Shown: one piece after another, positions 3,694 through 55,126 of the stretch
How the letters are laid out: every line of letters starts with the position of its first letter
How positions within the stretch are numbered: the stretch's first letter is position 1
Source of the DNA: Pelagomonas calceolata
Taxonomy: Eukaryota; Sar; Pelagophyceae; Pelagomonadales; Pelagomonadaceae
Assembly: GCA_918797485.1 (NCBI GenBank)
Contig: CAKKNE010000002.1
Coordinates: 834,501 to 898,500 of the forward strand
Reading direction: 5' to 3'
Length of the DNA: 64,000 nt
Program-made: the position numbers and the translations under genes
The notes under the pieces: generated by a model
What the model was told of the DNA's origin: nothing
Databases searched by the model: none
The model's input: the letters and a program-made list of their open reading frames with translations, nothing else

Positions 3694-6437
3694 TTATCCA
3701 ACGCTCGCCCCGTCGCCGACGTCCACGGCGGCCACCGCGCGGTCCGCCGCGAGGACGCAGTCGCCCAATACCACACGATTGGAGGAAGTCGACAGCGCCG
3801 CCTGCGCCGTCGGCCAGAGCTTCTTGTTGTTCATCTGGTTCGGCGTCGCGGGGTCCGCCGCCGGAAGGCCGTTGAACAGGGCCCGCGTTCCGGGTGCCGC
3901 GTCCACTTCCACCAGTCGGGTCGTATCATCTAGAGTAGCGCAGACGAGCATGCCCTGGCTCTTGAAGCCCGCCAAATTGCGCGGCTTCGTGTTGGCCAAT
4001 ACTATAACGTTCTTCCCCGCGAGGCCGTCGGGGTAGGCTTCGCGTAGCGCGGCGCCGATGGTGCGAGGCTCGCCCTCGCCGACGTCCACCGAGCACTTCC
4101 ACAACGTGTCCGAGTCCTCGACAGGTTCTGACGATACTACACTACCAACCAACAACTCGAGGCGCGCCGCCGCGGCCTGGTCCGCCGGCAGATCTAAGGC
4201 TGCCTCTTTTTTCTTCTTGGGCTGCGTTAATTTCTCCGCTGATTTCCGCTTCTTGCCGCCGAAGACGTCTTTCAAAGGAGCGCACCGATTCAGTACCAAT
4301 GGCGCACCCGGCAAGCGCTGGGGAGGAATCGCGGGGCTCCCCGCCGCGTCGACGCAAAAGTAGCCGTTCCGCTCGAGCTGCGTTACCGAACGAGGCTCGT
4401 CGTAGGCCCGATCGACCACATCCCTTTCCACGAGTGCTTCCACCAACTCCTCCAAGGCTCCTTGTGGATCTGCGTTATCATCACCACTAGGTTTTTCTGC
4501 TTTAAATAAATTGCCGTACAACCTCACGATGCAGGGCACGGCGTCGTCTCTCCGCAACCAATGAATGATGCCCTTGCATCTTGCTCCTGATCCTTTGGCG
4601 CCCGCGCGCGTGTCGCGCTCGACCGAACATAACAGTCTACATACATCTCCGTTGTCGTCCCTTTCCACAGAATTACACTGAACGACGTAGGCGTACCTCA
4701 GGCGCACGCGACCGCCCTCGACCAATCTGTTAAATCCCTTCGGGGGCTCGCCCGCCTGCAGGTCGTGAAAGTCGGTCCGCTCGATCACGAGGTCGGAACC
4801 GAAGCGCAACGGTCTCACGCCAAAGTCTTTCTTCGGGTGCCGCGGCGCCTCCAGCGCTTCGTCGGCTTCGTCAGCTTCCGTCCAGTCTACGACGGTTAAC
4901 GGTAAAGGCCGCAACACCCCAAACGCTCTCGCGGCCGACTCGTCGAGGACGTCTCGCACGCAGTCCTCCAGCACCTCGCTCTCGATGAACGCGTCGGCCT
5001 TGGATACGCCGACGCGCTCCGCGTACTCCCTTAACGCAGCGGGCGGCACGCCCTTCCTTCGCAGACCTGCGCGGAGCATTTCTGTCAAATCGGTCCGAAC
5101 GGCCTCAAGATCATCTCCTGGAGACGACGCGCGTCGATGGCGTGAAGGACGCCGAGATCAGACCTGACAAGGTGGGCAACCGGGGATCATCCCAGCCGTT
5201 GACCAGTCGATCATCGACGAGCTTCGCGAGTTTTCTTTTGGACATGACCGTGTGCGCCACGTTCAACCGGGAAAACTCGATCTGGCGCGGCGGCTTTAAC
5301 CTGTGTGGAAATCAAAATTTTACGGCGCGGTCGTGCTGAATCTTCGCGTCAACCTCCACGCCATCGACGCGACGCCTGCTCGATGGCGTGCACCCGACGC
5401 ACTGGTTGATTTCCACACAGGTCTAACGGAGGCTCCGTCTCGATCGGCGTCGGCGTTTCCGGTGATGCTCGATAGTCCTCGGGATTGCCGCCAGCCTTGG
5501 ACAAGCACCCGAGGACCCAGGCGTCGTCCCTGACTTCGGGACACTTGGCCACGACCCAGTCGTAGAGCGGTCGGTGGTCCTCGAACTCCAGAGTACACAA
5601 GCTATGAGTAATCCCCTCAATCGCGTCGCTCAAGGCGTGGGCGAAGTCGTACATGGGGTACAACCTCCAAGCATCTCCGGTCCGAGGGTGCGTCGCTTCC
5701 TTCACTCGGTACAAGGCCGGATCCCTCAGATTTAAGTTGGGAGACGCCATGTCGATCTTCGCTCGCAAAACAGCACTCCCGGCCGGTAAATCGCCGTTGC
5801 GCATCGCTTCTAGTAATTGCAGGTTCTCGTCGACGGTTCTATCTCGATATGGGGAATTTTCACCAGGGGACGTTAACGAGCCTCGTCTCAATTTCATGTC
5901 CTCGGCGGACTGAGAATCGACGTAGGCGTCGCCTCGTCTAACGAGTAACTTCGCACACGCGTACAGCACGTCAAAATAATCGGAAGCGTGGCGCACGCCC
6001 TCGAACCACGGGTCCTCATCATTTTCACCGACCAACCACCTTACATCCTCCAAAATCGCGTCGGCAAAGATCTGCTGCTCCTTCTCGGGGTTCGTGTCGT
6101 CCAGTCGCAAATGCGTCCGGCCCCCATAGTCCTTCGCAATCCCGAAATTGAGGCAGATCGACTTCGCGTGGCCGAGATGCAAGTACCCGTTCGGTTCCGG
6201 CGGGAACCTCGTAATGATGGTCTCGTGCTTCTTTTCTTTTATGTCGTTCTCGATGATGTCTCGAATAAAGTGCTTGCGTCCCGTGATTTCCTGGGGCGGT
6301 TCTGCTGGCGTTTGCTTGCGCTGGCGCCGCGCGTCGACTACTTCTATTTCCTCGGCTTTTAGTAATGTGTGCTTGCGCCGCGGAGCTGGCGGCTGCAGCG
6401 CTGCTGCGCTGACGAGCAGCAGTGCCAGCGACCGCAT
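3694..6437 (-). CDS. QARS: Glutaminyl-tRNA synthetase with C-terminal EMAPII-like tRNA-binding domain (3 exons)
   Basis: The class I synthetase charges tRNA-Gln with glutamine. Exons are 6437-5428, 5300-5164 and 5066-3694, giving about 839 residues. Landmarks are [17 protein letters not shown] with the HIGH-type motif, [30 protein letters not shown], and [17 protein letters not shown] with the MSKRK signature followed by [14 protein letters not shown]. Splicing is needed to reach GWDDPR and again to reach LRRKGV, which supports both introns. After the anticodon-binding barrels a charged Lys-rich linker leads to an OB-fold ([12 protein letters not shown] ... [13 protein letters not shown]) like EMAPII/Arc1p/MetRS tails. 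The ATG at 6437 gives a signal-like leader ending in an AAALQPP plastid-type motif; an in-frame ATG at 6491 also exists. The first intron is an introner. Confidence 0.9.
5067..5163 (-). other. GlnRS intron 2, decayed introner
   Basis: Splicing from TCAG|GTCTGA to GCGCAG|GTCTG joins PTLSG to LRRKG and restores the conserved synthetase sequence. The terminal inverted repeats are gone, but the hairpin core found in intact introners (GCGTCGATGGCGTG, 5131-5144) remains. Both splice junctions are followed by GTCTG, which may be the remains of a target duplication. Confidence 0.75.
5301..5420 (-). mobile_element. Introner, long subfamily, forming GlnRS intron 1
   Basis: This 120-bp element has inverted ends CTGTGTGGAAATCAA / TTGATTTCCACACAG. 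On the gene strand the flanks are GTTAGACC before and GTTAAAGC after, an 8-bp target duplication with two mismatches. Using the first GT as the 5' splice site and the element's CAG as the 3' site (intron 5427-5301) keeps the synthetase frame. An alternative 5' site inside the element end is also in frame and adds three residues. The interior has the family's hairpin core. Confidence 0.88.
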
Positions 6438-6822
6438 CGTTTCGCGAATGCTGGCGTGGGAGAGCAAGTGCTCCTGCTCGACGTGGTGCACTACAGCGGC
6501 GCGTGCGCGAGGAACAAGCTCGGTGGCCCGTGCTATACCGATAAACAGATCGTTACAACGCCTTCGCAGCTGTGTAAGCGCAGCGACGACGGCCTACAAC
6601 ATCAAACTCAAACCCATCGCGATACCCGCACGTAAGCCATTTGTGTCTCTAGGCCCTGATATTCTTGTTGTCGGCCTGAAAGACGTCGTGGATTCGAAAG
6701 GCGTTAACTTTTGAGCGCTCCGCGTCGGCGCCTCTCGTTCCCAGAGACGGCGTCTCAGTGGCACAATTACGTCCGCGCGCGCCTCTTCTAACGCATTTGG
6801 ATTGATTCCCACACGCATCGTC
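6438..6822. promoter_or_regulatory. Divergent upstream region, GlnRS and KEN-box gene
   Basis: No supported gene was found. It must hold the promoters of the GlnRS gene (minus) and the small KEN-box gene (plus). A TTGATTCCCACACGC string at 6802-6816 resembles an introner end but has no partner, so I do not call an element. No tRNA cloverleaf was found. Confidence 0.3.
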
Positions 6823-6999
6823 ATGGATAACGTCGCTCACAATAAGGAGAACTCGCCGCTCGTCGCTCGGAAGGAGCTAGAGCCTCAGGACGCAAGCAAG
6901 ACCCAGGAACATTCGAGCGACCTGCGGGGGCCGCGCAAACCCAATATCACGTCTTTCGTGTTGAAACCGGTGACGCTCCCCAAGCCGCTGCAAATTTAG
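6823..6999 (+). CDS. 58-residue microprotein with a KEN box
   Basis: The ATG at 6823 opens a 58-residue hydrophilic protein with no membrane or signal segment. Residues 8-12 are KENSP, the canonical KEN-box degron context recognised by the APC/C ubiquitin ligase, and a basic Pro-rich segment (LRGPRKPNITSFVLKP) follows. The gene lies 49 bp upstream of the ABM gene on the same strand and shares the intergenic space with GlnRS. A cell-cycle-regulated small protein is possible but is inferred from one short motif. The frame could also be an upstream ORF of the ABM transcript or a chance ORF. Confidence 0.45.
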   Translation: MDNVAHNKENSPLVARKELEPQDASKTQEHSSDLRGPRKPNITSFVLKPVTLPKPLQI

Positions 7000-7048
7000 A
7001 GCCGAATTGAGCTAAATCAATACGTTTACAAGTACTCGACGCGACGTA

Positions 7049-7411
7049 ATGGAGCGCCCCGCCGAACATAATTGTCCGACGACGCACAAGGCGCCGCCGG
7101 CACCTTATTACGCCGTGATCTTCTCCTCGACGCTATCAGACAACGCGGAGGGCTACGGCGCCATGGCCGAGCGCATGGTCGAGCTCGCGAGGCAGCAAGA
7201 AGGATTTATTGACGTCGAGAGCGCGAGCCGCACGAGCGAGGGCTTCGGCATCACCGTGTCCTACTGGAGAGACCTCGAGTCCATATCAAGATGGAAGGCT
7301 CAATCCGAGCACGCCGCCGCGCAGAGGATGGGCCGCGACGCGTTCTACCGAAGCTATAAGTTGCGGATCGCGCGCGTCGAGAGGGACTACGGCTTCGACC
7401 GGGACGCGTAA
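7049..7411 (+). CDS. ABM (antibiotic biosynthesis monooxygenase)-fold protein
   Basis: This 120-residue protein is the size of a single ABM ferredoxin-like domain with a short N-terminal extension. Visible family features are the first strand YYAVIFSSTL, the helix GAMAERMVELARQQEGFIDVES, the strand GFGITVSYWRDLESISRWK and the late Arg/Tyr-rich helix. Members (YgiN/PA-type) act as small quinol monooxygenases or heme-degrading enzymes, and many have unknown substrates. There is no signal peptide, so it is likely cytosolic. Its stop is 16 bp from the convergent YqeY gene's stop. Confidence 0.75.
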   Translation: MERPAEHNCPTTHKAPPAPYYAVIFSSTLSDNAEGYGAMAERMVELARQQEGFIDVESASRTSEGFGITVSYWRDLESISRWKAQSEHAAAQRMGRDAFYRSYKLRIARVERDYGFDRDA

Positions 7412-7427
7412 ATATGAACACAAGTTG

Positions 7428-8458
7428 TTACCCACACATCTCGTTGCAGAGCTCCCGCGCCAGCTTCCCGTCGAGCTCGTCCTTGTGGTCCTTCATCAGC
7501 ATACCCATGAGCTTCCCCGGGTTCGTGTTGCCGGCGTCTATTAACGATTGGATCCACCCTCGTACCGTATCTTCGGACGCCAGCGCCGGGAGCCACTGCG
7601 CAATCACATCCAACTCGGCCTTCTCGGCCGCCGCGCGCTCGGGCTCGCCGCCCTTCTCGAACATCTCTATCGACTCCTGGCGCATCTTGCTCCTGTGTGA
7701 TGAAAACGGTCGCGGCGACTGCGCGTGGGGGCGGACGCTGTACCACATACATCTTCCGCAATACCTTCACCGCTTCCGCGTCGGAGACGGCCTCGACGCC
7801 CGACTCCTTCGCCGCGTTCGTGAGCGCCGTCTTGATGAGGCGTAACGTGGAGGTCAGGTCCTTGTCGCGCGCCTTCATGGCCTGGATCACGCGCGTGTCT
7901 ACCTGTGCGCACATCACCGCGTCGCGTCGATGGCGTAAGGCGCTTCCGACGCCGCGTTCAAACATCAGCAGCAATAGGCAGCGGCTCCGCCGGGGGCGCG
8001 GGGGCCGGCGCGGGCGCGGGAGCTGGGGCCGGCGCGGGTGCGGGCTCCGACACCTCTACCGCCGCAGCAGACACGTCGCCGCGCTCCGCCGCGCGCAGCT
8101 CCTCGGCGAATTCTTCTTCTGAGAGCTCGTCGAACATCTCCTCCTCCTCCTCGCTCATGAGCCCGATCTGGTAGCCGAGCGACGCGGCCTTCTTCTGGAT
8201 CTTCGTCATCAATCTACCAGACATACGGCGGTTCGCGAGGTAGAATTCCGGCGAGGAGATGACTTCCGCGAGGTCGTCTATTGTGACGACCTTCTGGAGG
8301 TCGGACTTGACGCGCTGCCTTATTTTAAGCTGCTTGCGGCCGTAGCGCATCGAGATGCCGCTGCTTTGAACTCTCCGTTGCTGCACGGGGAGGCGGTTGC
8401 GCGACGGCGCGAGAGCACTCACCGCCAGTGCATTGATGGTGATCAGGGAGAGCAGCAT
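7428..8458 (-). CDS. Plastid-type YqeY/GatB-tail protein with a novel N-terminal domain (3 exons)
   Basis: Exons are 8458-7964, 7902-7751 and 7692-7428, about 303 residues. The C-terminal half is a complete YqeY (GatB/GatE tail) domain: VIQAMKARDKDLTSTLRLIKTAL, then MRQESIEMFEKGG after the second splice, then IAQWLPALASEDTV and NPGKLMGMLMKDHK. That fold binds tRNA and occurs as a tail on GatB and on some bacterial GlnRS. The N-terminal half is new to me: MLLSLITINALAVSALAPS looks like a signal peptide plus plastid motif, then an Arg/Lys-rich domain (residues 25-85), an acidic stretch and an Ala-Pro linker. Both splice joins are in frame. A role in organellar tRNA or amidotransferase work is inference; the GlnRS gene lies about 1 kb away. 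Confidence 0.82.
7693..7750 (-). other. YqeY intron 2 (58 bp)
   Basis: The intron runs GTATGTGG to ATCACACAG and joins LRKM to SKMRQESI, the expected YqeY sequence. No introner core is visible. The CACACAG end matches the introner terminus, so it may be a very reduced copy. Confidence 0.75.
7903..7963 (-). other. YqeY intron 1, decayed introner (61 bp)
   Basis: The intron starts GTTTGAAC and ends GCGCACAG|GTAGACAC, joining the Ala-Pro linker to the YqeY domain in frame. The family hairpin core (CGTCGATGGCGTAAGG on the plus strand) is retained, along with one recognisable end (CTGTGCGC). The flanking octamers match at only 4 of 8 positions, which suggests an old insertion. Confidence 0.8.
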
Positions 8459-8605
8459 GTTGTATGAAGCTCCTGGGAGCGATGTTGGAGCGGAATTGTT
8501 GGTGCCGTGCTGCTGCAAGTACGAACGCTAAATTGTGCTTTACAACGAGCTGCCAAAGTGCTCTCGACAGCAACAGGCGATGGCGCCCAGACTTGCTGGG
8601 GATGC

Positions 8606-8833: not shown

Positions 8834-10429
8834 ATGCCGCTCCACGACACCGCCAACGTCCTGGCAAAGCCACAACATGACGCCACCGCCGTAGCCAGAA
8901 GGAAGGCCTCTCTACTGAAAAAGCAGCGCCAGCTGCGGAGGGAGCTGCGCACCCTGCAAGACCAGTCCGCGAAAGACCTAGCATTGCTAGAAAAGGAGCG
9001 CCAGGAACTGCGGGACGGCCGCCTGAACGCCGCCGCGTCGCACGCCGCCAGGAAGGGCCTTGCCCAGAAGCCGCGGTCCAGTCGCGATAGGGCCGAGTTC
9101 GACGCGCGGACTCTGAAGGTCGAGGCGCCGCGGGCGGAGCAGGCTGCGAAGCGGGCCGAGGCGCGCTGTTCTTTAGCCTTGAAAAGGCTGGCCGTTGCTA
9201 AAGAGAAAGTGGAGTCGCTGCCGGGCAACCTGGGACGCGGGCCGGACCAGATCGACCAAATACGGCGCCAGCGGGAGGCCGCCCGTCTTTCTGAAGAGAA
9301 AATCAAGCTTAAGGAGGAGGCGGGACGAGTCCGCGAGGCGGCCAAGCTGGACCATGCGTTACGAAGGCTGAGATCAGAAGCGCGCGATCTGCGAGACGAC
9401 GCCGACGCCGAGGACGACCGCGTTTCCAGGGCGCGAGGCAGCGCCGCCGCGGCGTACGAGCGGGCGCTGCCGGCTCGGCGGCGCGTCGCGGCCTTGCAAT
9501 CTGAGTTACGGGACCAGTGCGACGTTTTGTGTGAAGACGGGCCCCTCGCCGTCGCCGACGCGTTGTTCGACGGGGAGCGCGTCGAGGGTGGGGTAGATGA
9601 AGGCATCTCCGCCAAGGCCTGCGCGCGGCTGCTGGCGCTGGTCTGGCTCGACGCTCCGGATTTGACAGATCCCGAGGAGTTGCCCGAGGCGCCTTGTGAT
9701 GCTGGTGGCGATCTCGTGGCCTTGTACGGGCCGCCGCCGCCGCCTCCATCAAGCGCGGCGCGGGCCGGCGAGCTGGCCTTCGATCTGGCCGATAACGTGT
9801 ACGACCGGGACGCCTTCCGGGCGGTCTTCGTGAAAGCCGCGGCGGCGGGGCCGCTGCCCTGGCCGGACCAGGCTTTTCAACGCATGCCGCTGCCGCGGTC
9901 GCCGTCGCCGTCGCCGCCCTCGTCTCCGGTCGACGACGTGTCGCCGCCGCCCTCGCCAGTCGCCGCGCCGTCGCCCTCAGCGTCGCCGCCGCGGTCACCC
10001 GCGACGCCCGCGTCGTCGCGCCGGGCGAAGACGCCCAAGTCGTCGCGCCCGCCGTCGTCGCGCCAAAAAACGCCGCAGGGCTCCCCCGAGGCGGCCGCGC
10101 CGCCCTCGCCCGAGGAAGATGCTCCGCCCTCACCAGAGGCTGATGCGCCGCCCTCGCCCGCGGCGGACGCACCGGCGTTCATCGTCGGCCAGAGGGTGGA
10201 GGCGAACTTCGAGGGAGAAGGGGAATGGTTCACAGGCGTCGTGGAGAAGGTCACGGAGGACGGACGCTACGACATCACCTACGACGACGGCGACGAGGAG
10301 TTCGGCGTCGAGGCGGCGCGCATGCGCGCGGCGACGGGCGACGCCGACGTCCTCGCGCCGCTGCCGGCGCCGCAGGACGAGCTCCGCCGCTCGGACGAGT
10401 ACGAGGAGTCGTTCGAGGCGGAGAACTAA
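8834..10429 (+). CDS. Coiled-coil protein with Ser/Pro-rich linker and C-terminal Tudor/agenet-like domain
   Basis: This single-exon protein has 531 residues. Residues 20-210 are a nearly continuous Arg/Glu/Lys/Leu coiled coil. A mixed region containing AGELAFDLADNVYDRDAFRAVF follows, then a Ser/Pro-rich repeat region (residues 355-450, SPSPSP and APPSPE units). At the C terminus a Tudor/agenet-type barrel is visible: FIVGQRVEANFEGEGEWFTG, then YDITYDDGDEEFGV, the W-x-G-x-V and YDDGD pattern of domains that read methylated lysine or arginine. The Ser-Pro content suggests kinase regulation. It is probably nuclear or cytoskeletal; I do not recognise the orthologue. Its stop is 16 bp from the convergent kinase's stop. 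Confidence 0.8.
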   Translation: MPLHDTANVLAKPQHDATAVARRKASLLKKQRQLRRELRTLQDQSAKDLALLEKERQELRDGRLNAAASHAARKGLAQKPRSSRDRAEFDARTLKVEAPRAEQAAKRAEARCSLALKRLAVAKEKVESLPGNLGRGPDQIDQIRRQREAARLSEEKIKLKEEAGRVREAAKLDHALRRLRSEARDLRDDADAEDDRVSRARGSAAAAYERALPARRRVAALQSELRDQCDVLCEDGPLAVADALFDGERVEGGVDEGISAKACARLLALVWLDAPDLTDPEELPEAPCDAGGDLVALYGPPPPPPSSAARAGELAFDLADNVYDRDAFRAVFVKAAAAGPLPWPDQAFQRMPLPRSPSPSPPSSPVDDVSPPPSPVAAPSPSASPPRSPATPASSRRAKTPKSSRPPSSRQKTPQGSPEAAAPPSPEEDAPPSPEADAPPSPAADAPAFIVGQRVEANFEGEGEWFTGVVEKVTEDGRYDITYDDGDEEFGVEAARMRAATGDADVLAPLPAPQDELRRSDEYEESFEAEN

Positions 10430-10445
10430 GTAGTAAAACACAAAC

Positions 10446-14658: not shown

Positions 14659-14666
14659 TAAGTCTC

Positions 14667-16722: not shown

Positions 16723-18161
16723 ATGACTGCGTCGAACCCGCGCAAGACCGAGGCCGACGCCTTGTATCGGAAGAAGAAGTACGGCGAAGCCGCCACGGCT
16801 TATAGCGCCGCTTTAAAACTGGAACCGCATAACGAGAAGATCTATTCCAATCGCGCCGCGTGCTGCGAGCAATTGTGTAAAGAACTCTGGGGCCCGGAGA
16901 AGCAGGGCTGGTTGACGTGCGGGCTGGGGGATGCCCGCAAGTGCCAGGAGTTAGCCCCGGAGTGGCCCAAGGCCCACGCGCGCGTCGTGGCGGCGTGCGT
17001 CCAGAAATGTAGCCACGAAAAAGATAGCGCCTGGGAGCGCGACGATTATGATGAAGAGGCGGCAGCGCGGTCGATTGGTAAGATCGCGGGTCCCTCGTCC
17101 CAGATCTTTTCTAGGAGTTGTCGGGAGGAATGCTCCGCTCTGAAACGCGAGGCCGAAGATGCCTGTAGGAGAGGATTGGCATATGACGCGTCGGACTTGT
17201 ACTTGCGAGCGGCTTTGAATAAATTAAGGGACGACGCCGACTATGTCGTACGTAAAGAAGATTCGTATCCATCGGGCAAGTACGCTTCCGATGCGTCCTT
17301 GCAGAAGACGGAGCCCGCCGGGCGCTTGAAGCAGAAGGGCAACGACTTGTTTGAGAAGAAGATGTATCCGCAAGCCGAAAAGGCCTATAGCGATGCTCTA
17401 GCCTTCGATCCCTTGGATGCCGTGCTGTACTCCAATAGATCAGCATGTCGAGTCCATCAAGATGAATATAGAGGAGCTTTAAGGGACGCGGAGAAGTGCG
17501 TCACATATAACCCGGACTGGGCCAAGGGCTATTTGCGCGTGGCGAACGCGTTGTTCGGCCTGGGGGATTACGTCGGCGCGGAGCAGGCTTGTATGAGAGG
17601 GTTAGCCATCGACCCGGACCATTCGGCACTGTCCAAGCTCAAAATACGTCTGAAGGTCGAAACGAAGGAGCCCCTGGAGGTGCAGCGGGAGATGCATAGA
17701 CTGAGGGAGGACCAGCGCCACCGCGGGTCCCTGAAAAAGACCCTGAAAGGCCTCCGGGAGCACGGCGGCGGCGCGGGGCCCGACATCTCCAAGGGCATCG
17801 AGGAGATGATGTCGAAGATGGGCATGCCTGTCACTGTGTGAAAATCAACCAGTGGGTTGGGTTTACGGGAACATCGTCGCGTCGATGGCGTGGAGCCTCC
17901 ACGCCATCGAGCAGACGCAGTTACGGGGACACCATCGCGTCGATGGCGTGGGGCGTCCGAAATCTGATTCCACACAGGCCGCCCGGCGTCGCGGGGATGG
18001 CTGGTTTGGATATGGCCAATTTACCCTCCGCGGCGGCGGACCAGCCCACGATGTCCGAGGCGCAGATGCGGCGGCACGCTCGGCATCGCGCGGGCGTGAA
18101 GCCTCCGCCTCCGCCTGACGGCGCGGTCGAGGTGGGGAGCGATGGGGCGTTTAACATGTGA
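16723..18161 (+). CDS. STI1/HOP-like TPR cochaperone (2 exons)
   Basis: Two TPR arrays are visible. The N-terminal one has ADALYRKKKYGEAATAYSAAL and YSNRAACCEQL. The second, near residues 200-310, has KQKGNDLFEKKMYPQAEKAY and LYSNRSACRVHQDEYRGAL. The Asn/Lys/Arg clamp residues that bind the Hsp70/Hsp90 EEVD end are present in both. A helical segment with GPDISKGIEEMMSKMG follows and is split by an introner. Reading straight through would stop at 17841. Splicing to 17978 instead gives PPGVAGMAGLDMAN and a 61-residue end, about 430 residues in total. The first array is enlarged by a roughly 30-residue insertion. It is likely a cytosolic chaperone adaptor; exact orthology to HOP is uncertain because DP domains are not clear. 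Confidence 0.85.
17834..17977 (+). mobile_element. Introner, short-type ends with duplicated core, in the STI1-like gene
   Basis: This 144-bp element runs from CTGTGTGAAAATCAACC to CTGATTCCACACAG. It has two copies of the hairpin core (17879-17893 and 17937-17951). The octamers flanking it are GCCTGTCA and GCCGCCCG. The target octamer starts with GC, so the intron would be GC-AG if the duplication supplies the donor. A GT inside the element end (17838) also gives an in-frame join. Confidence 0.85.
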
Positions 18162-25752: not shown

Positions 25753-26227
25753 TCAGTCCTTCATCTTGGCCTGGACCTCGGCGCTCGTGTAGGTCGTGTC
25801 CTGCGTGAACTCGACCATGACGGCGTCCTCGTTCATGACGGGGATGTGGCCCGGCGGCACGAGGTAGGTCTCGCCCGCCTGTGCGCAAATCGACCAGTGA
25901 GCAGGCGTCGATGGCGTGCAGTGGCGAAGCCCGCGAAATCTGATTTCCACACGGCCGCCCCACCTTGATGATCTTGATGTTGTCGGGGTCGTCCTTGAAC
26001 TTGATGCCCATGGAGCCGCTCTCGAGGTAGCCGAAGTGCGTCACCGGGCACCACATGACGGGGCCCTCGCCGGCCTTCGAGAGCATCGGGCTGATGGTTT
26101 TCACCCAGTCGAAGCCCTTGGGGATGAAGATGCGCTGCACCTGGCGGCCGTCGGGCAGGTCCTTCTTGAGCCACATCTTGGCGCCGCCGAACCTGCACAA
26201 GAATATCTCGAACCCACGAACGGTCAT
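25753..26227 (-). CDS. Small cupin-domain protein (2 exons)
   Basis: Exons are 26227-25964 and 25878-25753, about 129 residues. Spliced, it reads WCPVTHFGYLESGSMGIKF followed by IIKAGETYLVPPGHIPVMNEDAVMVEF, the two conserved halves of a single cupin barrel (HxxYLxxG...and G-x5-P-x-G-x6). Only some of the usual metal-binding His/Glu positions are clear, so an enzymatic role is not certain. The intron falls exactly between the halves and is an introner. The start at 26227 gives a normal short cupin with no signal peptide. Confidence 0.78.
25879..25953 (-). mobile_element. Introner, short subfamily, in the cupin gene
   Basis: This 75-bp element has ends CTGTGCGCAAATCG and CTGATTTCCACACG and a single core (CGTCGATGGCGTG). 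The intron used is 25963-25879, starting GTGGGG upstream of the element and ending GCACAG. A clear target duplication is no longer visible, so it is probably an older copy. Confidence 0.8.
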
Positions 26228-28915: not shown

Positions 28916-30255
28916 CTACTTCAGGAACACGAACGTCAGCGCCGCAGGCATGATCACGCAGCCGAGGAAGAACTGCCCGGCGGCGAGGTACCGCTTGGGC
29001 CCCGCCGGCCCGACGCGCCAGTAGATCCCGCCGGGCAGGATGTAGGAGATCGTCGTCGAGCCGGTCGCGCCGACGAGCGACAGCACCTTGCCTAGCGACC
29101 GGACCGAGAGCGCGATGGCCAACGCTCCTGCCAGGAAGGCAAGGGTGATGGAAATGTGCTCGACGTCGCGCGGCGCCTCGGGCGGGTCGTCGTCGCCCTG
29201 GGACGACGACCGCCGGCGGGACGGCGACTCGCCGTCGATGAGCGAATAGTCCGCGGCCGGCGCGTCGCGCTGGAGCAGCGATTTGATGCACTCGCGCGAG
29301 GGATGGAGCTGGAGCGGGATGGCGCTCGTCACCTCGAGGGCGACGGCGACGCGCGCCAGGGCGATCGCGGGCGCCGCGGCGTAGTTTGTAAGCACCTGTG
29401 CGTGGAAGCTCCACCCGTCGCGTCGATGGCGTGGGGCGGCCGAAATTTGATTTCCACACGGGTAAGCACGTCCGAGTGGATGCTCGCGCCGAACGTCGCG
29501 TAGCCGGCGTTCGCTATTATAAGGTAGAAGGCCAGGGCGAGCGACACCGCGCCCACGACGACGAGGTCCAGGCGTCGCCGCGTCGGGTCTCGCAGTTCGT
29601 TGTTGACCGCGAAGATGTTCTGGTGGCACGTAAAGCCGAAGACGAAGATCGGCAGATTCTTGAGCGTGCGGAAGTCGGCCACGACGTAGCTCGTCTCCGC
29701 GTCTCGGTCCGACGCGAACATCTCGCTCACGACGAGGAGCGCGATGCCGGCGCAGCAGAGGAGCGACGCCGCGCTCACGAGGCGCAGGTTGTCTAATTTC
29801 TTTTTTAGCGCGAGCGGCGTCACGACGAGCGCGGCGAACAAGATCCACGGCTCGCGCCGCGCTGCGAACGGGACGTCCGGCAGCGCCCTTTGCGCGACGA
29901 TCGGCAAGCTGTCGCCGACGACGATGAGGTACGAGCAGGCGACGCCGAAGCACTTGATGATCACGGCCAGGTCCACGAACGTCGCGAACCGCGGCGCCGC
30001 GGCGGACGCGACGGCCCGGAACGACGCCTTGTCACCGTCAACGATCTGCGCCGAGAGTGAGAGCAGGTGTAGGCCGTGCGCGCTGAACAGCGCGAAAACA
30101 AGCAACAATCCCGATCCCAAGGCCGAGCCGCACGTGGCGAACGCTGCGGGGAGCGCCAGGACGCCGCTGCCAATTATGGTGTTTGTGAGGTTGTAGACGC
30201 ATGAGCTGATCGATGCCACGCCGCCTTGCGCCGGCTCTGGAGGTGCTGCTGTCAT
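28916..30255 (-). CDS. Amino acid/auxin permease family transporter (2 exons)
   Basis: Exons are 30255-29470 and 29395-28916, 421 residues with about 11 membrane helices. The start of the first helix, TNTIIGSGVLALPAAF, is the family's hallmark. Others are FGVACSYLIVVGDSL, WILFAALVVTPLAL, FTCHQNIFAVNNEL, and AGYATFGASIHSDVLTNYA, which is restored only after splicing. This is the SLC36/SLC38/AVT-like group, which moves neutral amino acids across plasma or vacuolar membranes with H+ or Na+. The introner removes exactly one target copy. A hydrophilic loop of about 45 residues after helix 8 is rich in Asp/Arg/Ser. Confidence 0.9.
29396..29461 (-). mobile_element. Introner, short subfamily, in the transporter gene
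   Basis: This is the shortest copy (66 bp). On the gene strand it runs CCGTGTGGAAATC to CCACGCACAG and is flanked by perfect 8-bp duplications GTGCTTAC (plus-strand 29462-29469 and 29388-29395). Only the donor at the first base of the left duplication gives an in-frame join (IHSD|VLTNYA), so the intron is 29469-29396. Confidence 0.92.
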
Positions 30256-33499: not shown

Positions 33500-35656
33500 A
33501 TGGCCTCGCTCCGCCTCGCCCTGCGCCTGAGCCGCGAGGCCAGCGAGGCGCCCGCGCCCGCGCCGCAAGTTCAAGAAGACGAGCCGCCGGCGCGCCCGAA
33601 AAAGAAGAAGCCGTCGAAGCGCAAGCCGAAGCCCGCCGCCGCGCGCCCGAAAGCCCGAAGCCGCAAGCCGCCGGCGACGGCCGTCGGCGGCGGGACCCTC
33701 GAAAGGCTGCCCTGGGAGCTTCTCGGCGCGGTGGCCAAGTACCTGACGGTAGAAGATGCGGCGCGGTGGCGCGGCTGCGGCCGGAGCAGCGCCGCCGGCG
33801 TCGGCGCGCTCTGGGGCGAGGACCGGCCGGAGCTTTGTGCTGGCGAGCTGAGCGCGCAGATTTCGAGGCTCGCGTGCACGAGCGCCGAGGACGAAGAGGC
33901 GCTCTGGGCGCACCCGCACAACACGCTCTGCCAGGTATGTGGAAACGGCGGCCGCGTCGTGGCCTGCGCCTACTGCAACCTCGTGTGGCACGCGCAGTGT
34001 TTGGCCGAGGCGGCCGCCGCGGGCGACAAGTGGCGCTGCCCCGAGTGCGTCGCGGACCAGACGGCGCCGGTCATCGGCGCCACGTCCGCTTTTGTGAGGC
34101 GTCGCGGCGACGGCCTCGAGTTGGTTGTGGGCGGCGGCTACCACTTCAGCAGCTTCACGCCTAACGGGAGCCGCTACGTCGCTTCGTTGAAAGAAAGCGC
34201 GGCGGCCTGGCGGCGCACATCCCATGAAGAGGCGCCGCCGGCGGGCTTCTCGGCGTCGGACGCCCTCGCGGCCGACGACGGCACTATACGCTGCTTCGCG
34301 CGTTATGGTGATGGCGAGAGGACCGAGGGCCCGGCCTGGGACGCGGTCGACGCCTGTGTGGAAATCAACCAGTGCGTCGGGTGCCCTCGGCCGTCCTGGC
34401 TCGGTCGAGCGGTGAGGAACCGGCATCGCCACGCCATCGAGCAGGCGTCGCGTCGATGGAGGACGACGCGATGATTCAGCACGAACGCGCCGTAAAATTT
34501 GATTTCCACACAGGTCGACGCGCCGCCCCTCGTGGCGGCGGCCGGCGCGGCGACGGTCTACGACGCGCTCTGGACGTTGGATGAGGACGGCTGGCGCCGG
34601 CGGCCGCTCGCGGGCCCGCGGCCGACGCTCCGCGCGGACGCGTCGCTCGCTCAGATCCGGATCCGGGGCCGCGAAGTTTTGGTCGTCTTCGGCGGCTTCG
34701 CGCCCGACCTGCGGCGGCCCCTAGGCGGCCTCCACGCCCTCGACGTCGCCAGCGGCACCTGGTCGACCCTCGCACCGGACGACCTCGCGCCGAAGCCGCG
34801 CGCCAAGCCCGTCCGCGTCGCGGCGCCGGCGCCGGCGCCGCCCGCGCCGCCGGCCCAGAACACGCGCGGCCGCGCCGAGCCCGCGCGCGGCGCGCGGACG
34901 CCGACGGAAGCTATTTTTGGTGAGCCCGACAGCGACGCGGACTCCGAGGTCGAGTTCGACGCCGACGCCGCGCCCGAGCTGCCGCCGGCCGCGGACCAGG
35001 CGCGCCTCGCGGCGCTGGGCCTGCGCGGCGCGACGCGGCCGGCGGAGCGCTGGGAGCCCGAGGTCGCGCCGCGCCGGAAGCGCGGGCCCCGCCGGAAGCG
35101 GGCGCGCGCCGCGCCGACGGCGCCGTCGCCGCGCGCGGGCCACTCGTGCACGCGCGTGGGGCGGGAGCTCGTCCTGCTCTGCGGCCTCGGCCGCGTCGAG
35201 GGCCAGTCCGGCCTGCCGCGGAGCGACTACCTCGACGAGGCCTGGTTCCTGTCCTTCGACGGCGCGACGGGCGCCGCGCGGTGGCGCCTGCCGCGGGTCC
35301 AGGGCCGGCCGCCGGGCGGCCGCGCGGGCCACGCCGCGGCCGCCGTCGGGCCGCACGTCGTCGTCTTCGGCGGCGTCAACGCGAAGCAGTTCCTGGGCGA
35401 CCTGCACGTCCTCTACGCGCCCGCGCGGATCTGGTCCGCGCCGCGGCTGGCCGGCCCGGCCGTCGCGCCGCGCATGCGGCCCGCGCTAGTAGTCGCGCGC
35501 GCCGACGCCGACGACGCGACGACGCCGACGCTCTACGTCTTCGGCGGCACGCGCGCCTGGGGCGCCGCGGCGGCCGTGGCGACGGCGACGCAGCGCCACG
35601 ACGGCGACCTCTTCGCGGTCGTGCTCGCGCCAGCGCCTGTGGCCGAGATGTTCTAA
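33500..35656 (+). CDS. F-box/PHD-finger/kelch protein (2 exons)
   Basis: Exons 33500-34345 and 34514-35656 encode 662 residues. A basic, nuclear-signal-like stretch ([18 protein letters not shown]) precedes the F-box ([24 protein letters not shown], residue 65 on). The PHD finger (142-187) has [22 protein letters not shown] and WRCPEC with all eight ligands. Kelch blades fill the second exon ([55 protein letters not shown]). An F-box plus kelch suggests an SCF substrate adaptor; the added PHD finger suggests it reads chromatin. Splicing restores WDAVDAPPLV. The start at 33500 sits in an A-rich context (AAAAAAATGG). Confidence 0.88.
34354..34513 (+). mobile_element. Introner, long subfamily, in the F-box gene
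   Basis: This 160-bp element has perfect 13-15 bp inverted ends (CTGTGTGGAAATCAA / TTGATTTCCACACAG) and perfect 8-bp target duplications GTCGACGC at 34346-34353 and 34514-34521. The intron is 34346-34513. The interior from GAGGAACCGGCA to the end is almost identical to the copy at 53120-53268, suggesting recent movement. Confidence 0.95.
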
Positions 35657-37422: not shown

Positions 37423-39252
37423 TCACTTAAAGAACTGACCGCCCGCCCCCTTTTTCGACTGGCGTGAGACGCGATTCGAAAAGGTGTTGGTGCGCATATG
37501 TGCGCGTACCTTCGAAACGCGGGCTGCGCGGCGCCGCGAGCCGCCACGCGTCTTCGCCTTGATGCGTATCATACGCTTGGCCTCGCCTTCTCGCGCGTCG
37601 CCGTACCAGGTCGGAGAGCTCGTTTGCGCTCGCCGCTGCGACGCCGTCGTCCCCGGTCTTAAGGGCGAGGGCGTCGGGGAGTACTGCGCCACGCGCGCGT
37701 CGGCGGTCTCGGCCCGCGGTGGCGCGGCGGACGTGCCCGGCCGCCCCCCCACGAGCGGCCGCCCGCCCGGCGGCGGCCCAAAGAGAAGTGGGCGGCCGTC
37801 TGGCGGCGCCTCGGGCATGTCCGCGACGTCGAAGGTCACCTCGGGCGTCGGCGCCAGCTCCCGCATCACGATCGGGTCGTCATCATCGTCGAAGCGGTCC
37901 AGCAGCGAATCCAAGGCCTCGTCGTGGGCGCCCGGGCGCCAGCCGTCGCCGCCCTCGGCCATGGCCTTCTCGGCCTTGGCGCGCTCGTACGCGTGGTCCT
38001 TGCCCTTGCGTTCTTTTGCGAACTCGGCAAAATCCGCCCACTCGCTCCGCGTCCCGAAGCGCGTCTCCCGGTCGTCGGGGCCGCGCGCGAGGGGCGAGTC
38101 CGCGAGCCCCGCGGCGCCGGCGCCGGCCTTACGCATGCCGAGCTCGAGCATGCGCAGCATCTTCGGCGCGGCCTCGCGCGACAGCGGCTGCAGGTCGACC
38201 TGTGTGGAAATCAACCAGTGAGTCAGGTTATCCTGGGAGTTATTGCGAGAGACCTCTGTCGCGTCGATGGCGTGGGGCGTCCGAAATTTGATTTCCACAC
38301 AGAAGTCGACGGCTTCCACGGCGTCGCTGGACCGCGCCGAGAACTGGCGCCTCAGCTTCAGCTCGCGCTGGTGCCGCGGCAGCGTGTTCCGGAAGAACTC
38401 GAGCGCCCGGATCGTGTTCGAGGCCGCGTAGGCGCCGTCGCCGCGGCGCGGCCCCTCCCGCAGGTAACGCCCGTAGAGCGGCCGGACGCCGACCTTCTCC
38501 AGGACGTCGTAAAAGTCCTTCCCACTGGCTTGCAGCTCGGGGTCGTAGAGGCGGCCCATCGCGGCCCGGACCGCGCGGCTGTCGTCCGTCACCACGCTGT
38601 CGCTCCCCGCGGAGCGCGGCGCCCGCACCTTCGAGTCCTCGACGGCGTCCGCCAGGCCAGCAACGACCGAGCCGTCGGTGAACAGCACGCGCACGGCGAG
38701 GTCCCGCCGCGCCGCGAGGGCCCGCCGGTCGCGCATCGCCACTTTGCCGACCTCCGCGGTCTTCTTCGTGTCGCGGAACTGCCGCAGCGCCTCCGCGGCG
38801 CCGACGGCGCGGTTCCCGTCGAAAGTGTTCCGGTTCCTGTCGTCGGCCCGCTTCTTGCGGATCTGGAGCTCCGTGAGGCCGCAGGCGTCGAGCGACGGGT
38901 AGGCCGTCGGCGCCGGGTCGGCGACGACGCCGGAGCAGACGGGGCAGAGCAGCTCGGCCGCCGCGATCACCTGGAAGCAGCGCCCGCACCGCAGCTCGCG
39001 GCCGAGGTTCGCCGCCTGCTCGCCGTTCACCAAAAAGCCGTAGTCGACGTCGAGGGGCGGCGGCGCGCGCTCCTTCTTCGGGCGCGGGCGCCGCTTCTTC
39101 TGGCCCGGGACCCTGTAGTGGTCGCGGACCCTTCGTAAAGTTTCCTGGCGCCGGGCCTCGATGGCCGGGTCGTGGGACTTGATGGACGAGCGGGGGCAGC
39201 GGCTCGTCTCCATGCGCTCCATGGCGGCGATCTCCGCGGGCGTGAGGGCCAT
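37423..39252 (-). CDS. Unknown protein with a zinc ribbon (2 exons)
   Basis: Exons 39252-38311 and 38199-37423 encode 572 residues. I do not recognise the family. A basic N-terminal region with RRPRPKKERAPPP leads to a four-Cys ribbon (LRCGRCFQVIAAAELLCPVCSG, residues 95-115). Then comes a helical region with LFTDGSVVAGL and DFYDVLEKVGVRPLYGRYLREG, a likely folded core. After the intron there is an acidic stretch (DRFDDDDDPIVM), a Pro/Gly-rich linker and a very basic end. The start at 39252 (MALTPAEIAAMERM) has an ATGG context; an upstream ATG at 39294 adds little. The composition suggests a cytoskeletal or flagellar protein, but that is a guess. Confidence 0.72.
   Translation of the reverse strand: MALTPAEIAAMERMETSRCPRSSIKSHDPAIEARRQETLRRVRDHYRVPGQKKRRPRPKKERAPPPLDVDYGFLVNGEQAANLGRELRCGRCFQVIAAAELLCPVCSGVVADPAPTAYPSLDACGLTELQIRKKRADDRNRNTFDGNRAVGAAEALRQFRDTKKTAEVGKVAMRDRRALAARRDLAVRVLFTDGSVVAGLADAVEDSKVRAPRSAGSDSVVTDDSRAVRAAMGRLYDPELQASGKDFYDVLEKVGVRPLYGRYLREGPRRGDGAYAASNTIRALEFFRNTLPRHQRELKLRRQFSARSSDAVEAVDFCVEIKFRTPHAIDATEVSRNNSQDNLTHWLISTQVDLQPLSREAAPKMLRMLELGMRKAGAGAAGLADSPLARGPDDRETRFGTRSEWADFAEFAKERKGKDHAYERAKAEKAMAEGGDGWRPGAHDEALDSLLDRFDDDDDPIVMRELAPTPEVTFDVADMPEAPPDGRPLLFGPPPGGRPLVGGRPGTSAAPPRAETADARVAQYSPTPSPLRPGTTASQRRAQTSSPTWYGDAREGEAKRMIRIKAKTRGGSRRRAARVSKVRAHMRTNTFSNRVSRQSKKGAGGQFFK
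38200..38302 (-). mobile_element. Introner, short subfamily, translatable copy
   Basis: This 103-bp element has both ends intact (CTGTGTGGAAATC). On the gene strand the duplications are GTCGACTT and GTCGACCT (one mismatch). The intron (38310-38200) is 111 bp, a multiple of three, with no stop in the host frame, so retention would insert 37 residues without breaking the protein. Splicing gives VEAVDLQPL. Confidence 0.9.
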
Positions 39253-41668: not shown

Positions 41669-41786
41669 CCTTCGCTGTTTAGTACTTCCGCGCGCTGTAT
41701 CCTTCCGCGCGGTCGAACCCCTGTTTAGTAACCACAAAGTATAGCTTACACAAATTCCGGCGCCTCTCTCCCGCCGTCGTATAGGC

Positions 41787-41845
41787 GCGTCGATGGCGTG
41801 GAGGTCGTCGTCGACGGCGCGGAGGTCGTCGCGCACTCGCCACAG
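41787..41845. repeat. Introner-core relic in a convergent spacer
   Basis: GCGCGTCGATGGCGTGGAGG followed by GTCGTCGTCGACGGCGCGG is the hairpin core without element ends. It lies between the convergent stops at 41668 and 41864. Confidence 0.5.
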
Positions 41846-44605: not shown

Positions 44606-44650
44606 AGATCCCTACTCCCCGTGTAATCAAACGGTAAGAGACCACACCGA

Positions 44651-44687
44651 CACGCCATCGAGCAGGCGTCGTCGCGTCGATGGCGTG
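44651..44687. mobile_element. Introner hairpin core in a convergent spacer
   Basis: CACGCCATCGAGCAGGCGTC then GTCGCGTCGATGGCGTG is the complete core hairpin of the long introner subfamily, with arms CACGCCATCGA and TCGATGGCGTG. The terminal CTGTGTGG ends are absent. It lies between the convergent stops at 44605 and 44720. Confidence 0.65.
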
Positions 44688-44719
44688 TAGATGGCGTGGA
44701 GGCCATGATAAGTCCTACC

Positions 44720-48791: not shown

Positions 48792-49556
48792 TCAATACGC
48801 GGACGCGGCGACGGACCCGAGAGGTTGCTGCGTGGCGGTGGCCGCGGCCGTCGGCGGCGGCGCGTCGATGTTGAGGTGCTTGAGGATCGCGTCGAGCTTG
48901 GCGTCCGTGCTCTGCGCTTGGGCCTTGAGGATCTGGATCTCGCCGAGGAGCTGTTCCGCGCGCTTGATCTGGCCCGTGTCGCCGCGCGCCTTCATGCGCG
49001 TTTTGAGCTCCTTGACGATCTCCGCCACGAGGTCGCCGGCGCAGAAGCACTGGGGCGAGACCTTCGTCTCGGCGAATTGGAAGCAATGGCAGCACCCGAG
49101 GCATCTCAAGTGCTCGACGGCCTGGAGCTCGCCGTAGGGCCGGCGCTGCGTCTGCGTCGAGCAGCACGTGGTCGTCACCAGATGTGCCTCTTCCGGCTCG
49201 AGGAACAGCTTCTGCTCGAGCGTGCAACACAACCTGTGTGGAAATAAAAATTTACGGCACGTTCACGAGTGCTGAATCGTCGCATCGTCCAGGACTCGTC
49301 CTCCACGCCATCAATGCGACGCACTGGTTGATTTCCACACAGAACGTAACGGGATTATCCCCGGAATGATCCAGAACTTCTCGAAGTAGTTCGTCACATT
49401 ATACTCCTTGTGCTCGAAGCGGACCGCGGCGAACGTCCTGTTCGCCGCGGACGGCTGGTGGTCGACGATGCCGTCGCTGCCGGACGCGAGCTGGCTCTCG
49501 GTCACGGGCGACATCTGAGTCGCGGAGACGAGGCGTTTCGAGGCGTCGCGCGTCAT
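48792..49556 (-). CDS. Cys-rich protein of unknown family (2 exons)
   Basis: Exons 49556-49351 and 49233-48792 encode 215 residues. After splicing the centre reads YFEKFWIIPGIIPLCCTLEQKLFLEPEEAHLVTTTCC, then LRCLGCCHCFQF and SPQCFCAGDLVAEIV, with Cys pairs in a pattern suggestive of palmitoylation or metal binding. A C-terminal coiled coil (IKRAEQLLGEIQILKAQ and ILKHLNI) and an Ala/Thr tail follow. It has PLAC8-like Cys pairs next to Trp/Pro-rich segments, but I could not assign the family. Only the spliced form joins IIP to LCC in frame, so the introner intron is supported by phase. Confidence 0.7.
49234..49342 (-). mobile_element. Introner, long subfamily, in the Cys-rich gene
   Basis: This 109-bp element has inverted ends CTGTGTGGAAAT. 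Gene-strand duplications are GTTACGTT and GTTGTGTT (6 of 8). The intron is 49350-49234. The core hairpin is one-armed (GCATTGATGGCGTGG), a sign of decay. Confidence 0.88.
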
Positions 49557-50884: not shown

Positions 50885-50958
50885 ACTACTTTGTATTTGT
50901 GTAATAAGGATGCATATATATATATCCCTCTCGGCCCGATTGTGATACACGTGTGCGC

Positions 50959-50982: not shown

Positions 50983-51049
50983 AAGTTGGGGCCTGTGACA
51001 CCACGCGCGCGCGGCTGCCCCTGAGCGGTGGTGGCAGCACTTGGGAGCC

Positions 51050-52738: not shown

Positions 52739-52743
52739 TAAAC

Positions 52744-55126
52744 CTAGTCCACGCCGTCATCATCCAGCATCGCGCGCATCTCCCTCAAAGCGTGCGCGCT
52801 GCCGTTGGCGCGCGCCTTGAAGGGCAAGTCCGCCTCGTCGACCATCGACGACGCGCGCTTCGAGCCGCCCTGTTCTCCCTCAACGTCAGGTCGGTCGTGC
52901 GCCACCCCGGCTTTCTCAGGCGGCCGCCGGTTGAAGCCGAGGCCCCGGGCCGGGGGAAAGGCGCCCTTCATCGTACCGTTGCCCGCCTCCAGTTTCGCGA
53001 CGTGCCGCAGCATCTTCTCCGCGTCCTTACAGTCCGCGTCGACGTCCAAACAGCGATGAAATAAACTGCGCGCCCCGTCGTAGTCCTTAATACCTACTAG
53101 GGCCTTGCCGCCCCGGAACCTGTGTGGAAATCAACCAGTGTGTCGGGTGCTCCGTCGAGCGGCGAGGAACCGGCACCGCCACGCTATCGAGCAGGCGTCG
53201 CGTCGATGGCGTGGAGGTCGACGCGATGATTCAGCACGAACGCGCCGTAAATTTTGATTTCCACACAGCCCGGAACAAGGCCTTCAAGTCTTCCGGGTCG
53301 TCCTTCAGCACGCTATGACAATCGTCGCAGACCCGTTGGTACTCGCACCGTTTGAGGTCGCACGCGGCCCGATTCAGTCGACACAACCGTTCCAACTCCA
53401 GACATCGAGCTTGGAGCTCCGCATACCGTCGGTTGCGCTTCTCCCGCAACGAATCCTCCGCCTTGGGCACGTCGGGCACGTCGAAGGTCGGCGGCCGCGG
53501 GAGGTCTTCATAATCAAAATCTGATGAAGGAGTGTCGATGATCGGATCTAGCGCCGCCTTGCAGTATCTAGATGGCTCACTGGGGTCGAACTCATTCTCC
53601 GGATCGTTCTCGAAGTGCTCTAACGCGTCGGCGGCGTCCTCTATTTGTCTAAGAGCGTCGCCGTAGCGTCGCGACGCTCGCGCAAAGGCCGACCGGTCGT
53701 AATGTTGGGAACCTCTTTGTTTGGCGTCCTCGGCTAATGCTAGTCGTGCTTCGCACCGCTGGAGAGCGTCGCCGTCGCTCGACGCGTTGAACCGCTGTAT
53801 GGCCACTAATTCTAGACGACATTGCAAGGGGCACGAGTAGCACCTACTATCAGCTACCGCCGATAAAGCACCTCGATCCCCTCCATAATGAAACGCTTGT
53901 AAGTCGTCAATGCGCGGCGCGGTCGGCGCGCAGGCCGTCGACGGCGGTCGCACAAAGCATAGATCAGGGGCATGTATGGTAACGTCCGCAGTTTCTCCGA
54001 TACTCATGCGCCTTATCGCGAGTTCGATACCTCGACACAGGGGCGCTTTGAGTTCCGACGCACTGTCGAAGGTCGCCGACGCGTCTTCATCAAGCCGCCA
54101 GGATACGGTACCTTCCCCTGTCCCGTAGGCGCACGCTATTGTACCGGAATCTCTAGCCTTGACGACGCCGCGCACCACAACCACATCCAAGTCCGAGGGC
54201 ACGGCGCGCGATCCGTCGGGCGCCTGTATGATTTTTTTTGATATAGCACCGGCTCGCTCGGGAAAACAATCTTCGACCTCGCAAAAATCTATCAAACTAA
54301 GTTCGAAGGCCTCATCCAGCAAAGCTACGATTGCCGTCTCGCCTTTCGCACAGGCCTCCGCGGCGACGCGTAACGGTTCCGCCTTACGTTGCATGGGGTC
54401 CGCACAAGCTCTTGATTCTATTGTTTCATCCATTGATTCGCGGGTGCAGCCTCCTACCAACAATACGGCGTCGTCGTCGCCCGGCCAGCACCATCCCGTC
54501 GGAACATATCGCGCTTGTAACGAATACGTGATGTCGGACCGCGCCGTCGGCCGGCGCCAATGTTCTTCACCATCCTTGAGGGTCTGTTTCAGGACGGAGC
54601 CCTGGCCCAGTCTCCCCGACGCGTCCTCGGTCTTTTGTACTACCGCTACTATTTCGAGAATCTCCAGCTCGAAGCTAATCAGACCTTCAACAGCAAAGCG
54701 CGCGGGCAGCGCGGCGTCGTCGGCCTCGAAGTCGCCCCGCTCGCCCTCGACTAACGAAGCTGCGGCGCACGACAGCCACCGAGGGATTGCTAACGCTCCT
54801 ACTAAAAAGCGACCGTCCTCTATAGATGAAAACACCTCGTTCTGGGACGAACACGCGAGGCGCGCGGCGACCGTGTCGCCGAAGCGCACTCTCCGCCCTT
54901 GTTTAGTAGGCTGGACCTTGCGTCTCAAACCACCTTTGATCTCGACCCAGGCCCGTTGACTTACTTTGGAAGAGGGCGGCCGGGGCCACTCGTCCTTGCA
55001 GAGGTTTGACGGCCAGTCGGGGTTCTCGCTTGCGATCTGGCAGTTCCTCGCGAACTCCTCCCTGAGTTTTTCTTGTTCCTTTCGGGCCTCGTCGGGGTCG
55101 TAATTTAGGTCGACGCGGCCCCACAT
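52744..55126 (-). CDS. Divergent FKBP/TPR cochaperone-like protein (2 exons)
   Basis: Exons 55126-53277 and 53119-52744 encode about 741 residues. The N-terminal half has two FKBP-like segments (residues 75-240 and 335-420) with the barrel pattern but few of the PPIase active-site aromatics, so catalysis is unlikely. A TPR array follows: AKQRGSQHYDRSAFARASRRYGDAL, LCRLNRAACDLKRCEYQRVCDDC, then, after splicing, LKALFRGGKALVGIKDYDGARSLF, where the last unit is created only by removing the introner. The C terminus is a long low-complexity tail. The TPR clamp suggests Hsp90 binding, as in FKBP51/52 or plant TWD1. Confidence 0.8.
53120..53268 (-). mobile_element. Introner, long subfamily, in the FKBP/TPR gene
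   Basis: This 149-bp element has perfect ends (CTGTGTGGAAATCAA) and perfect 8-bp target duplications (GTTCCGGG on the gene strand, plus-strand 53269-53276 and 53112-53119). The intron is 53276-53120. It is inserted in the opposite orientation to the nearly identical copy at 34354-34513, yet both splice. Confidence 0.95.

Follow-up and report, generated by a model that had tools for sequence, protein, structure and literature searches.

The window, a 64,000-nt stretch of Pelagomonas calceolata DNA with a GC content of 63.8%, contains eight short elements that interrupt coding sequence, at 5301, 17834, 25879, 29396, 34354, 38200, 49234 and 53120, as a preliminary description of the sequence had proposed. 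Each is interpreted here as an introner, that is, as a copy of a transposable element that would be read as an intron. The predicted introns and some related features are listed in window coordinates.

5067..5163, minus strand: intron 2 of the glutaminyl-tRNA synthetase gene; removal joins TLSG to LRRKGVPP
5301..5427, minus strand: predicted introner intron 1 of the glutaminyl-tRNA synthetase gene; 120-bp element 5301-5420 plus a 7-nt donor-side flank copy; GT..AG
17826..17977, plus strand: predicted introner intron of a TPR protein gene; 144-bp element 17834-17977 plus an 8-nt flank copy; GC..AG
25879..25963, minus strand: predicted introner intron; 76-bp element 25879-25954 with degenerate ends, plus 9 nt; GT..AG
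29396..29469, minus strand: predicted introner intron of an amino-acid transporter gene; 66-bp element 29396-29461 plus a perfect 8-bp duplication
34346..34513, plus strand: predicted introner intron; 160-bp element 34354-34513 with exact ends and a perfect 8-bp duplication, GTCGACGC
38200..38310, minus strand: predicted introner intron; 103-bp element 38200-38302 with exact ends; duplication 7/8
44627..44693, no strand assigned: core-only fragment with no recognisable ends, just 3' of a gene's stop codon; nhmmer E 9.9e-10
49234..49350, minus strand: predicted introner intron; 109-bp element 49234-49342; duplication 6/8
53120..53276, minus strand: predicted introner intron; 149-bp element 53120-53268 with exact ends and a perfect 8-bp duplication
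61774..61947, minus strand: candidate intron; one end recognisable, on the acceptor side; duplication 6/8

Both motifs on which the elements were first recognised are enriched in the window at no more than three mismatches, the end motif with 30 occurrences against 9.1 expected (maximum of 15 in 100 shuffles) and the core motif with 153 against 51.8. The inverted ends ascribed to all eight copies are intact in half of them: both 13-bp ends are exact at 5301, 34354, 38200 and 53120, and not in the other four. Similarly, the flanking duplication does have the length of 8 bp first reported, with identical copies in only three of the eight cases (29396, 34354 and 53120). The remaining duplications match at 7/8 (38200), 6/8 (49234), 5/8 (25879), 4/8 (17834) and, ungapped, 3/8 positions (5301), where GTTAGAC and GTTAAAG can be paired by eye with a one-base indel. 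That three of the eight duplications stand at 5/8 or worse counts against the introner model. The boundaries at 5301 and 25879 were set by hand, with flank copies of 7 and 9 nt instead of 8.

Excision was said to restore the host frames, and coding-like frames are joined in 8/8 cases, provided that the element is removed together with one copy of the duplication rather than alone. Removal leaves open frames of 388+63 codons at 5301, 387+61 at 17826..17977, 126+41 at 25879 (LLR 0.194 per codon), 326+380 at 34346..34513, 342+258 at 38200, 80+147 at 49234 (LLR 0.19 per codon) and 499+125 at 53120. Six of the eight spliced products were included in a Pfam scan. The Aa_trans match of the transporter runs unbroken over the 29396 junction (residues 15-390 of 422, junction at 263). 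For two products the best-matching stretch precedes the junction (tRNA-synt_1c, and TPR families in the upstream exon of the 17826..17977 host), and three have no match (25879, 49234 and 53120). The host at 5301 is a glutaminyl-tRNA synthetase (GlnRS), with GlnRS matches on both sides of the junction. The best alignment to a solved GlnRS chain breaks off at 351 and restarts at 392, with the junction at 388 and about 37 extra residues in the exon ahead of it. With both introns of this gene removed (5067-5163 and the 5301 copy), the frame spans 891 residues from stop to stop.

The second intron of the GlnRS gene has no recognisable ends. It retains a core-like stretch, agrees with the next exon at 5 of its first 8 nt, and is probably an eroded introner copy; its boundaries were set by eye from the GlnRS alignment. 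The core-only fragment at 44627..44693 is either a non-intronic copy or an eroded one. A weaker core-like fragment without recognisable ends lies between genes at 41772-41809 (nhmmer E 0.0021, absent at a cut-off of 0.001). At 7903 on the minus strand an eroded acceptor-like end, GATGTGCGCACAG, coincides with a gap between two coding segments and marks a probable further eroded introner.

Further copies, which the preliminary description led one to expect, are abundant in the genome. Over the 32,445,274 bases searched (8 contigs), the exact 13-bp end occurs 1,721 times (878 + 843), against 1 + 0 for a control with reversed letters. At no more than two mismatches there are 1,913 + 1,892 ends (3,805), against 142 + 112 (254) in the reversed control. 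Subtraction of the control leaves about 3,551 ends, equivalent to roughly 1,780 elements with every end paired, or 3,550 with every end single. The pattern is that of introners: many sequence-similar introns at separate gene positions in one genome.

The elements collected for comparison come from loci around exact ends on one contig (C1) and from one region of another (C4), part of the C1 loci having been chosen mostly around seemingly unpaired ends, and are not a random sample. Among 47 elements retained by a size filter of 40-320 bp, sizes range from 57 to 204 bp, which leaves no room for a transposase gene. Small size, terminal inverted repeats and a target duplication of fixed length are together the anatomy of miniature inverted-repeat transposable elements (MITEs). 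Beyond the shared CTGTGTGGAAATCAA the two ends differ and are called A and B. Of 45 copies collected, the 19 that reach 160 bp or more were aligned; the longest measure 200-204 bp, and shorter ones are internal-deletion forms. Among the 45, four elements of 203 bp and a single one of 204 are the longest. Sixteen of the aligned copies are 92-98.5% identical to the majority sequence, and the window copy at 34346..34513 stands at 96.3%; the other three aligned copies lie at 58-71%. Two interior types occur beneath the common ends. In one copy, at locus L022, the interior is clearly distinct (57.8% identity with the majority sequence). This element (L022:669-848) has nearly the same 13-bp ends, a 7/8 duplication and an unrelated interior, which suggests a further family using the same ends. 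A profile derived from the copies finds 69 introner-like places in 320 kb, 21 of them without one or both recognisable ends.

The length of the duplication was determined on the 47 elements with paired ends (at most 3 edits per end and 4 in all, 40-320 bp). Their flanking 8-mers are identical in 19/47 cases and differ at no more than two positions in 38/47, whereas shuffled pairing of the flanks gives 2.2 such cases on average and at most 7 (500 shuffles). Exact duplications of 6, 7, 9 or 10 bp were found in 0/47, so that the duplication is 8 bp long. AG terminates the element on either strand, and the predicted 5' splice site consists of the two opening bases of the duplication. This donor is GT in 81% and GC in 19% of the 37 oriented elements, among 40 with good duplications, GT being given preference where both strands offered a donor.

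Coding frames support the same splice sites. Among the 46 elements with enough flanking sequence (of 49 given), removal of the element plus 8 nt yields an open, coding-like frame in 38 and no such frame in 8. When the removal is shifted, the number falls to 1 at +1 nt and 4 at +2 nt and recovers to 36 at +3 nt; left unspliced, 3 of the 46 are open and coding-like. All 38 frame-restoring copies have a donor on the coding strand, and in 11 the other strand has one too. An earlier and stricter run on 51 elements, with 3 dropped as too near an end, gave a coding-strand donor in 21/21 cases with a single-strand donor and a clear frame (14 minus, 7 plus). The remainder comprised 14 one-donor elements too weak to call, 12 with donors on both strands and 1 with none. 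The copies thus lie in genes and their exact removal restores a coding frame, in 38/46 elements at large and 8/8 in the window, as expected of introners.

Could the elements simply be MITEs that landed in genes, either as insertions that are never spliced or in pseudogenes? Their anatomy would fit, down to the internal deletion derivatives. In the window, the chosen frame read without splicing meets a stop inside the insert in 5/8 cases and 22 codons beyond it at 29396; at 25879 and 38200 it runs on through the insert, as such a reading would allow. However, the rise from 3/46 coding-like frames unspliced to 38/46 excised, and the presence of the donor on the coding strand in 38/38, are hard to obtain in this way, and two of the eight window hosts, the glutaminyl-tRNA synthetase and the amino-acid transporter, are recognisably conserved. 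Unspliced insertion is therefore regarded as the least probable of the explanations considered, with next to no weight.

The acceptor provides a separate test of the introner interpretation. Of 49 elements, 45 were used, 4 with an ambiguous donor strand being left out and the strand of the 5301 copy set by hand. The AG at the acceptor is intact in 45/45, against 38/45 at the unused end (Fisher p = 0.012), which indirectly favours excision of the copies from the mRNA. In the window, the 29396 copy lacks AG at its unused end. In the same 45 elements, the base that makes the A of this AG takes 7 of the 19 mismatches of the unused end, the most of any position. Beyond the AG, the used 13-bp end is no better kept than the unused one (21 against 19 mismatches in the 45 elements). 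Since the counts are alike at both ends, no selection on a branch site or pyrimidine tract is detected, and the idea that the end also contains these signals was dropped. Predicted intron phases in this set are 21 in phase 0, 4 in phase 1 and 11 in phase 2, with 9 not called.

The orientation of the elements relative to the gene is evenly divided (21:21, with 3 of the 45 unassigned). This bears on a second alternative, that the copies are ordinary introns spread through RNA by reverse splicing, the inverted ends being merely structural. Reverse splicing should yield a single orientation and no duplication of the kind seen here. Neither the even split nor an 8-bp duplication lying outside conserved inverted ends is thus expected from it. 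It would accommodate the location of most copies in coding sequence (38/46) and the fold of the one copy analysed at the RNA level, a 212-nt sequence that forms a long hairpin whose ends pair as a 15-bp stem, from just inside the 8-nt donor flank to the acceptor (z-scores of -3.7 and -5.6 on its two strands). The inverted repeats by themselves account for such a stem, which need not have a function. Spread by reverse splicing is accordingly very improbable.

The preferred reading, to which we assign a probability of about 95% on the strength of sequence comparisons, is that the introner family consists of non-autonomous, MITE-like cut-and-paste DNA transposons that would have become spliceosomal introns on insertion. 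The proposal made for the window agrees with this, and the duplication length, frame, donor-strand and acceptor tests all back it. As the sequences show, insertion duplicates 8 bp of the target. The inverted end, which reads ...CCACACAG outgoing in either orientation, supplies each strand with a predicted 3' splice site, and the duplication, which begins with GT or GC on the coding strand, supplies the predicted 5' splice site. A cut from GT/GC to AG takes out the element and one copy of the duplication and restores the frame. The elements appear to be read as introns because their ends give one splice signal and the duplicated site the other; as the intron equals one duplication copy plus the element, splicing is predicted to leave the pre-insertion sequence and an mRNA of unchanged length. 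The reading further supposes that the spliceosome really does remove these introns, that a transposase acting in trans moved the copies, that selection mostly eliminates insertions lacking a donor on the coding strand, and that ends and duplication would erode with age until a copy resembles an ordinary intron.

Why do nearly all copies have a donor? Among the 1,721 exact ends, GY is found eight bases out in 1,074 and RC just outside in 1,105, with 537 sharing both, so that a possible donor is present on one or both strands at 1,642 ends (95.4%) and absent from 79. Among the C1 ends listed for all three patterns, the figure is 68/69. It is possible that the donor dinucleotide reflects a target preference of the transposase alone and not the survival of splice-competent insertions. 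Some preference is present: flanks with both GY and RC make up 31% of ends (537/1,721), against a background in which RC follows 16% of GT and 21% of GC, and among 100 GY flanks listed RC follows GT in 44% of cases and GC in 61%. A weak preference for palindromic targets is thereby indicated. However, a chance of about 31% for GY on each side independently would give only about 53% of ends with a donor, and under preference alone the donor of many copies should be confined to the non-coding strand, a case found in 0/38. Loss of insertions without a donor is therefore the simpler explanation for the rest, in a model that assumes independent sides, and preference as the sole cause is unlikely. 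A control at position -9 (171/1,721) was not used as a background rate because it is confounded, a G at -8 excluding Y at -9.

The P. calceolata RCC100 assembly comprises 6 nuclear contigs of 32.4 Mb in addition to the plastid and mitochondrion, at a GC content of 63.6% (PMC9481584). The genome paper mentions introner elements and, from transcriptome-aided gene models, an intron-length peak of about 210 bp (PMC9481584). The elements described here are very probably the same, given that peak (PMC9481584). The longest copies, at 203-204 bp plus 8, predict introns of about 211-212 bp, an independent fit to the published value (PMC9481584). There, as far as the cited part of the paper goes, introners were inferred from intron length, whereas ends, duplication, donor rule and copy number are given here (PMC9481584). 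It is the only paper found to pair introners with Pelagomonas, and none was found on Pelagomonas introns and transposable elements. The end sequence, donor rule and counts were not found in print in the parts of the sources covered.

Introners of the same general design are known from other protists. Those of Aureococcus anophagefferens (Huff et al., 2016) are described as having direct repeats of constant length, terminal inverted repeats and canonical splice motifs (according to PMC7789003), co-opted splice sites and both insertion orientations (according to PMC10228655), and a characteristic length around 210 bp (according to PMC9481584). By these descriptions alone, they resemble the present family in pelagophyte host, repeats, co-opted sites, orientations and the length of about 210 bp. 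Introners that bring their own 3' site and take the 5' site from the duplication have already been reported, as have GC donors in introners (PMC9860276). Among them, those of Symbiodinium microadriaticum (Gozashti et al., 2022; PMC9860276) are described as sharing the terminal inverted repeats, the carried 3' site and the duplication-derived 5' site, but have a duplication of 4 bp against the 8 bp seen here and an unrelated host (PMC9860276). Family 4 of Aureococcus sp. is given the same 8-bp duplication and also a pelagophyte host; its members bring both splice sites with them and lengthen the mRNA by 12 nt, in contrast to the unchanged length predicted here (PMC9860276). Amoebophrya introners likewise appear as an inverted-repeat hairpin joining the exon borders, with direct repeats at the borders and no internal transposase, but with mostly non-canonical splice sites and direct repeats of 3-5 nt, against GT/GC..AG and 8 bp here (PMC7789003). 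The mechanism matches that of published introners, and the present set is a well-resolved family of a known kind. Since the main principle is already published, its value is that of a clean dataset and not of a new mechanism. The origin of new introns is an old question, and this compact, chromosome-level algal genome holds copies of different ages with readable duplications and splice sites, so that the shares of target preference and selection in intron gain become measurable.

What fraction of the introns does the family supply? With 16,667 genes and 0.45 intron per gene in the genome paper (PMC9481584), there are about 7,500 introns, of which the family would represent roughly 24-47% if all copies are introns. 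The claim that it accounts for essentially all introns in the 64 kb is not borne out, the window containing the end-less intron 5067-5163 and further candidates. Among same-strand gaps with a recognisable end, a duplication of at least 6/8 is found in 25/52, against 4.7 in shifted controls; among those without, the count is 14/68 against 7.6, in a test that is weak, many gaps not being proven introns. On this last count an origin of all introns from the introner family is not supported. A frame-score method for locating boundaries did not rank the right one first at the known introns 34346, 53120 and 25879, nor at 5067-5163.

An autonomous element with the same ends, as the preliminary description suggested looking for, was not found among end pairs in 320 kb (~1% of the genome). 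In 41 sources covering these 320 kb, 10 pairs of ends lie 400-9,500 bp apart, 2 of them with flanks differing at no more than two positions, and 24 of the 103 ends (at most 2 edits) lack a partner within 320 bp. The two pairs with such flanks, L010:125-726 and L030:638-8525, were rejected, at least one end of each belonging to a short copy. A third, the 3.45-kb L030:5075-8525, was also rejected: its right end is that of a 72-bp copy (8454-8525), which lacks one base at its own left end. No recognisable partner exists for the left end at 5075, and 6 of the 8 flanking positions disagree between the two sides of the 3.45-kb pair. Models of KDZ, MULE, IS1595 and TNP-RNaseH gave 0 matches genome-wide, KDZ and TNP-RNaseH matching no control genome either. 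The 8-bp duplication is of the length characteristic of the hAT superfamily; a hAT transposase with introner ends was not found, the sole hAT dimerisation match in the genome sitting in an element whose ends are different. Two exact-pattern scans of viral contigs as possible carriers gave 0 matches. A 2025 paper reportedly deals with horizontal transfer of introners.

A more speculative account would combine these elements. The end would act as a 3' splice site on either strand, while the transposase would favour near-palindromic GY....RC targets, so that many insertions bring donors on both strands, making the element a pre-adapted intron maker. The mobiliser would be lost, or of a type missed by the models tried, and most remaining introns may be worn copies of the same or sister families. 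As a whole this account is tentative and on balance doubtful.

The hAT element itself lies on contig C4 (L010:5550-9200, ~4.4995-4.5032 Mb), with perfect 20-bp ends, CAGGGCAGCAGAAGGGCAAG, and an 8-bp duplication, TTGCTCGC; its protein has one match genome-wide. It shares the duplication length with the introner but differs in its ends, which are unlike CTGTGTGGAAATC of the introner, and was rejected as the mobiliser. An eroded introner seems to form an intron of its gene (profile E 6.9e-16). On both sides of the element lie inverted arms of 314 bp that are 74% alike (L010:4802-5115 and 9633-9946), and these may be two related host genes in opposite orientation.
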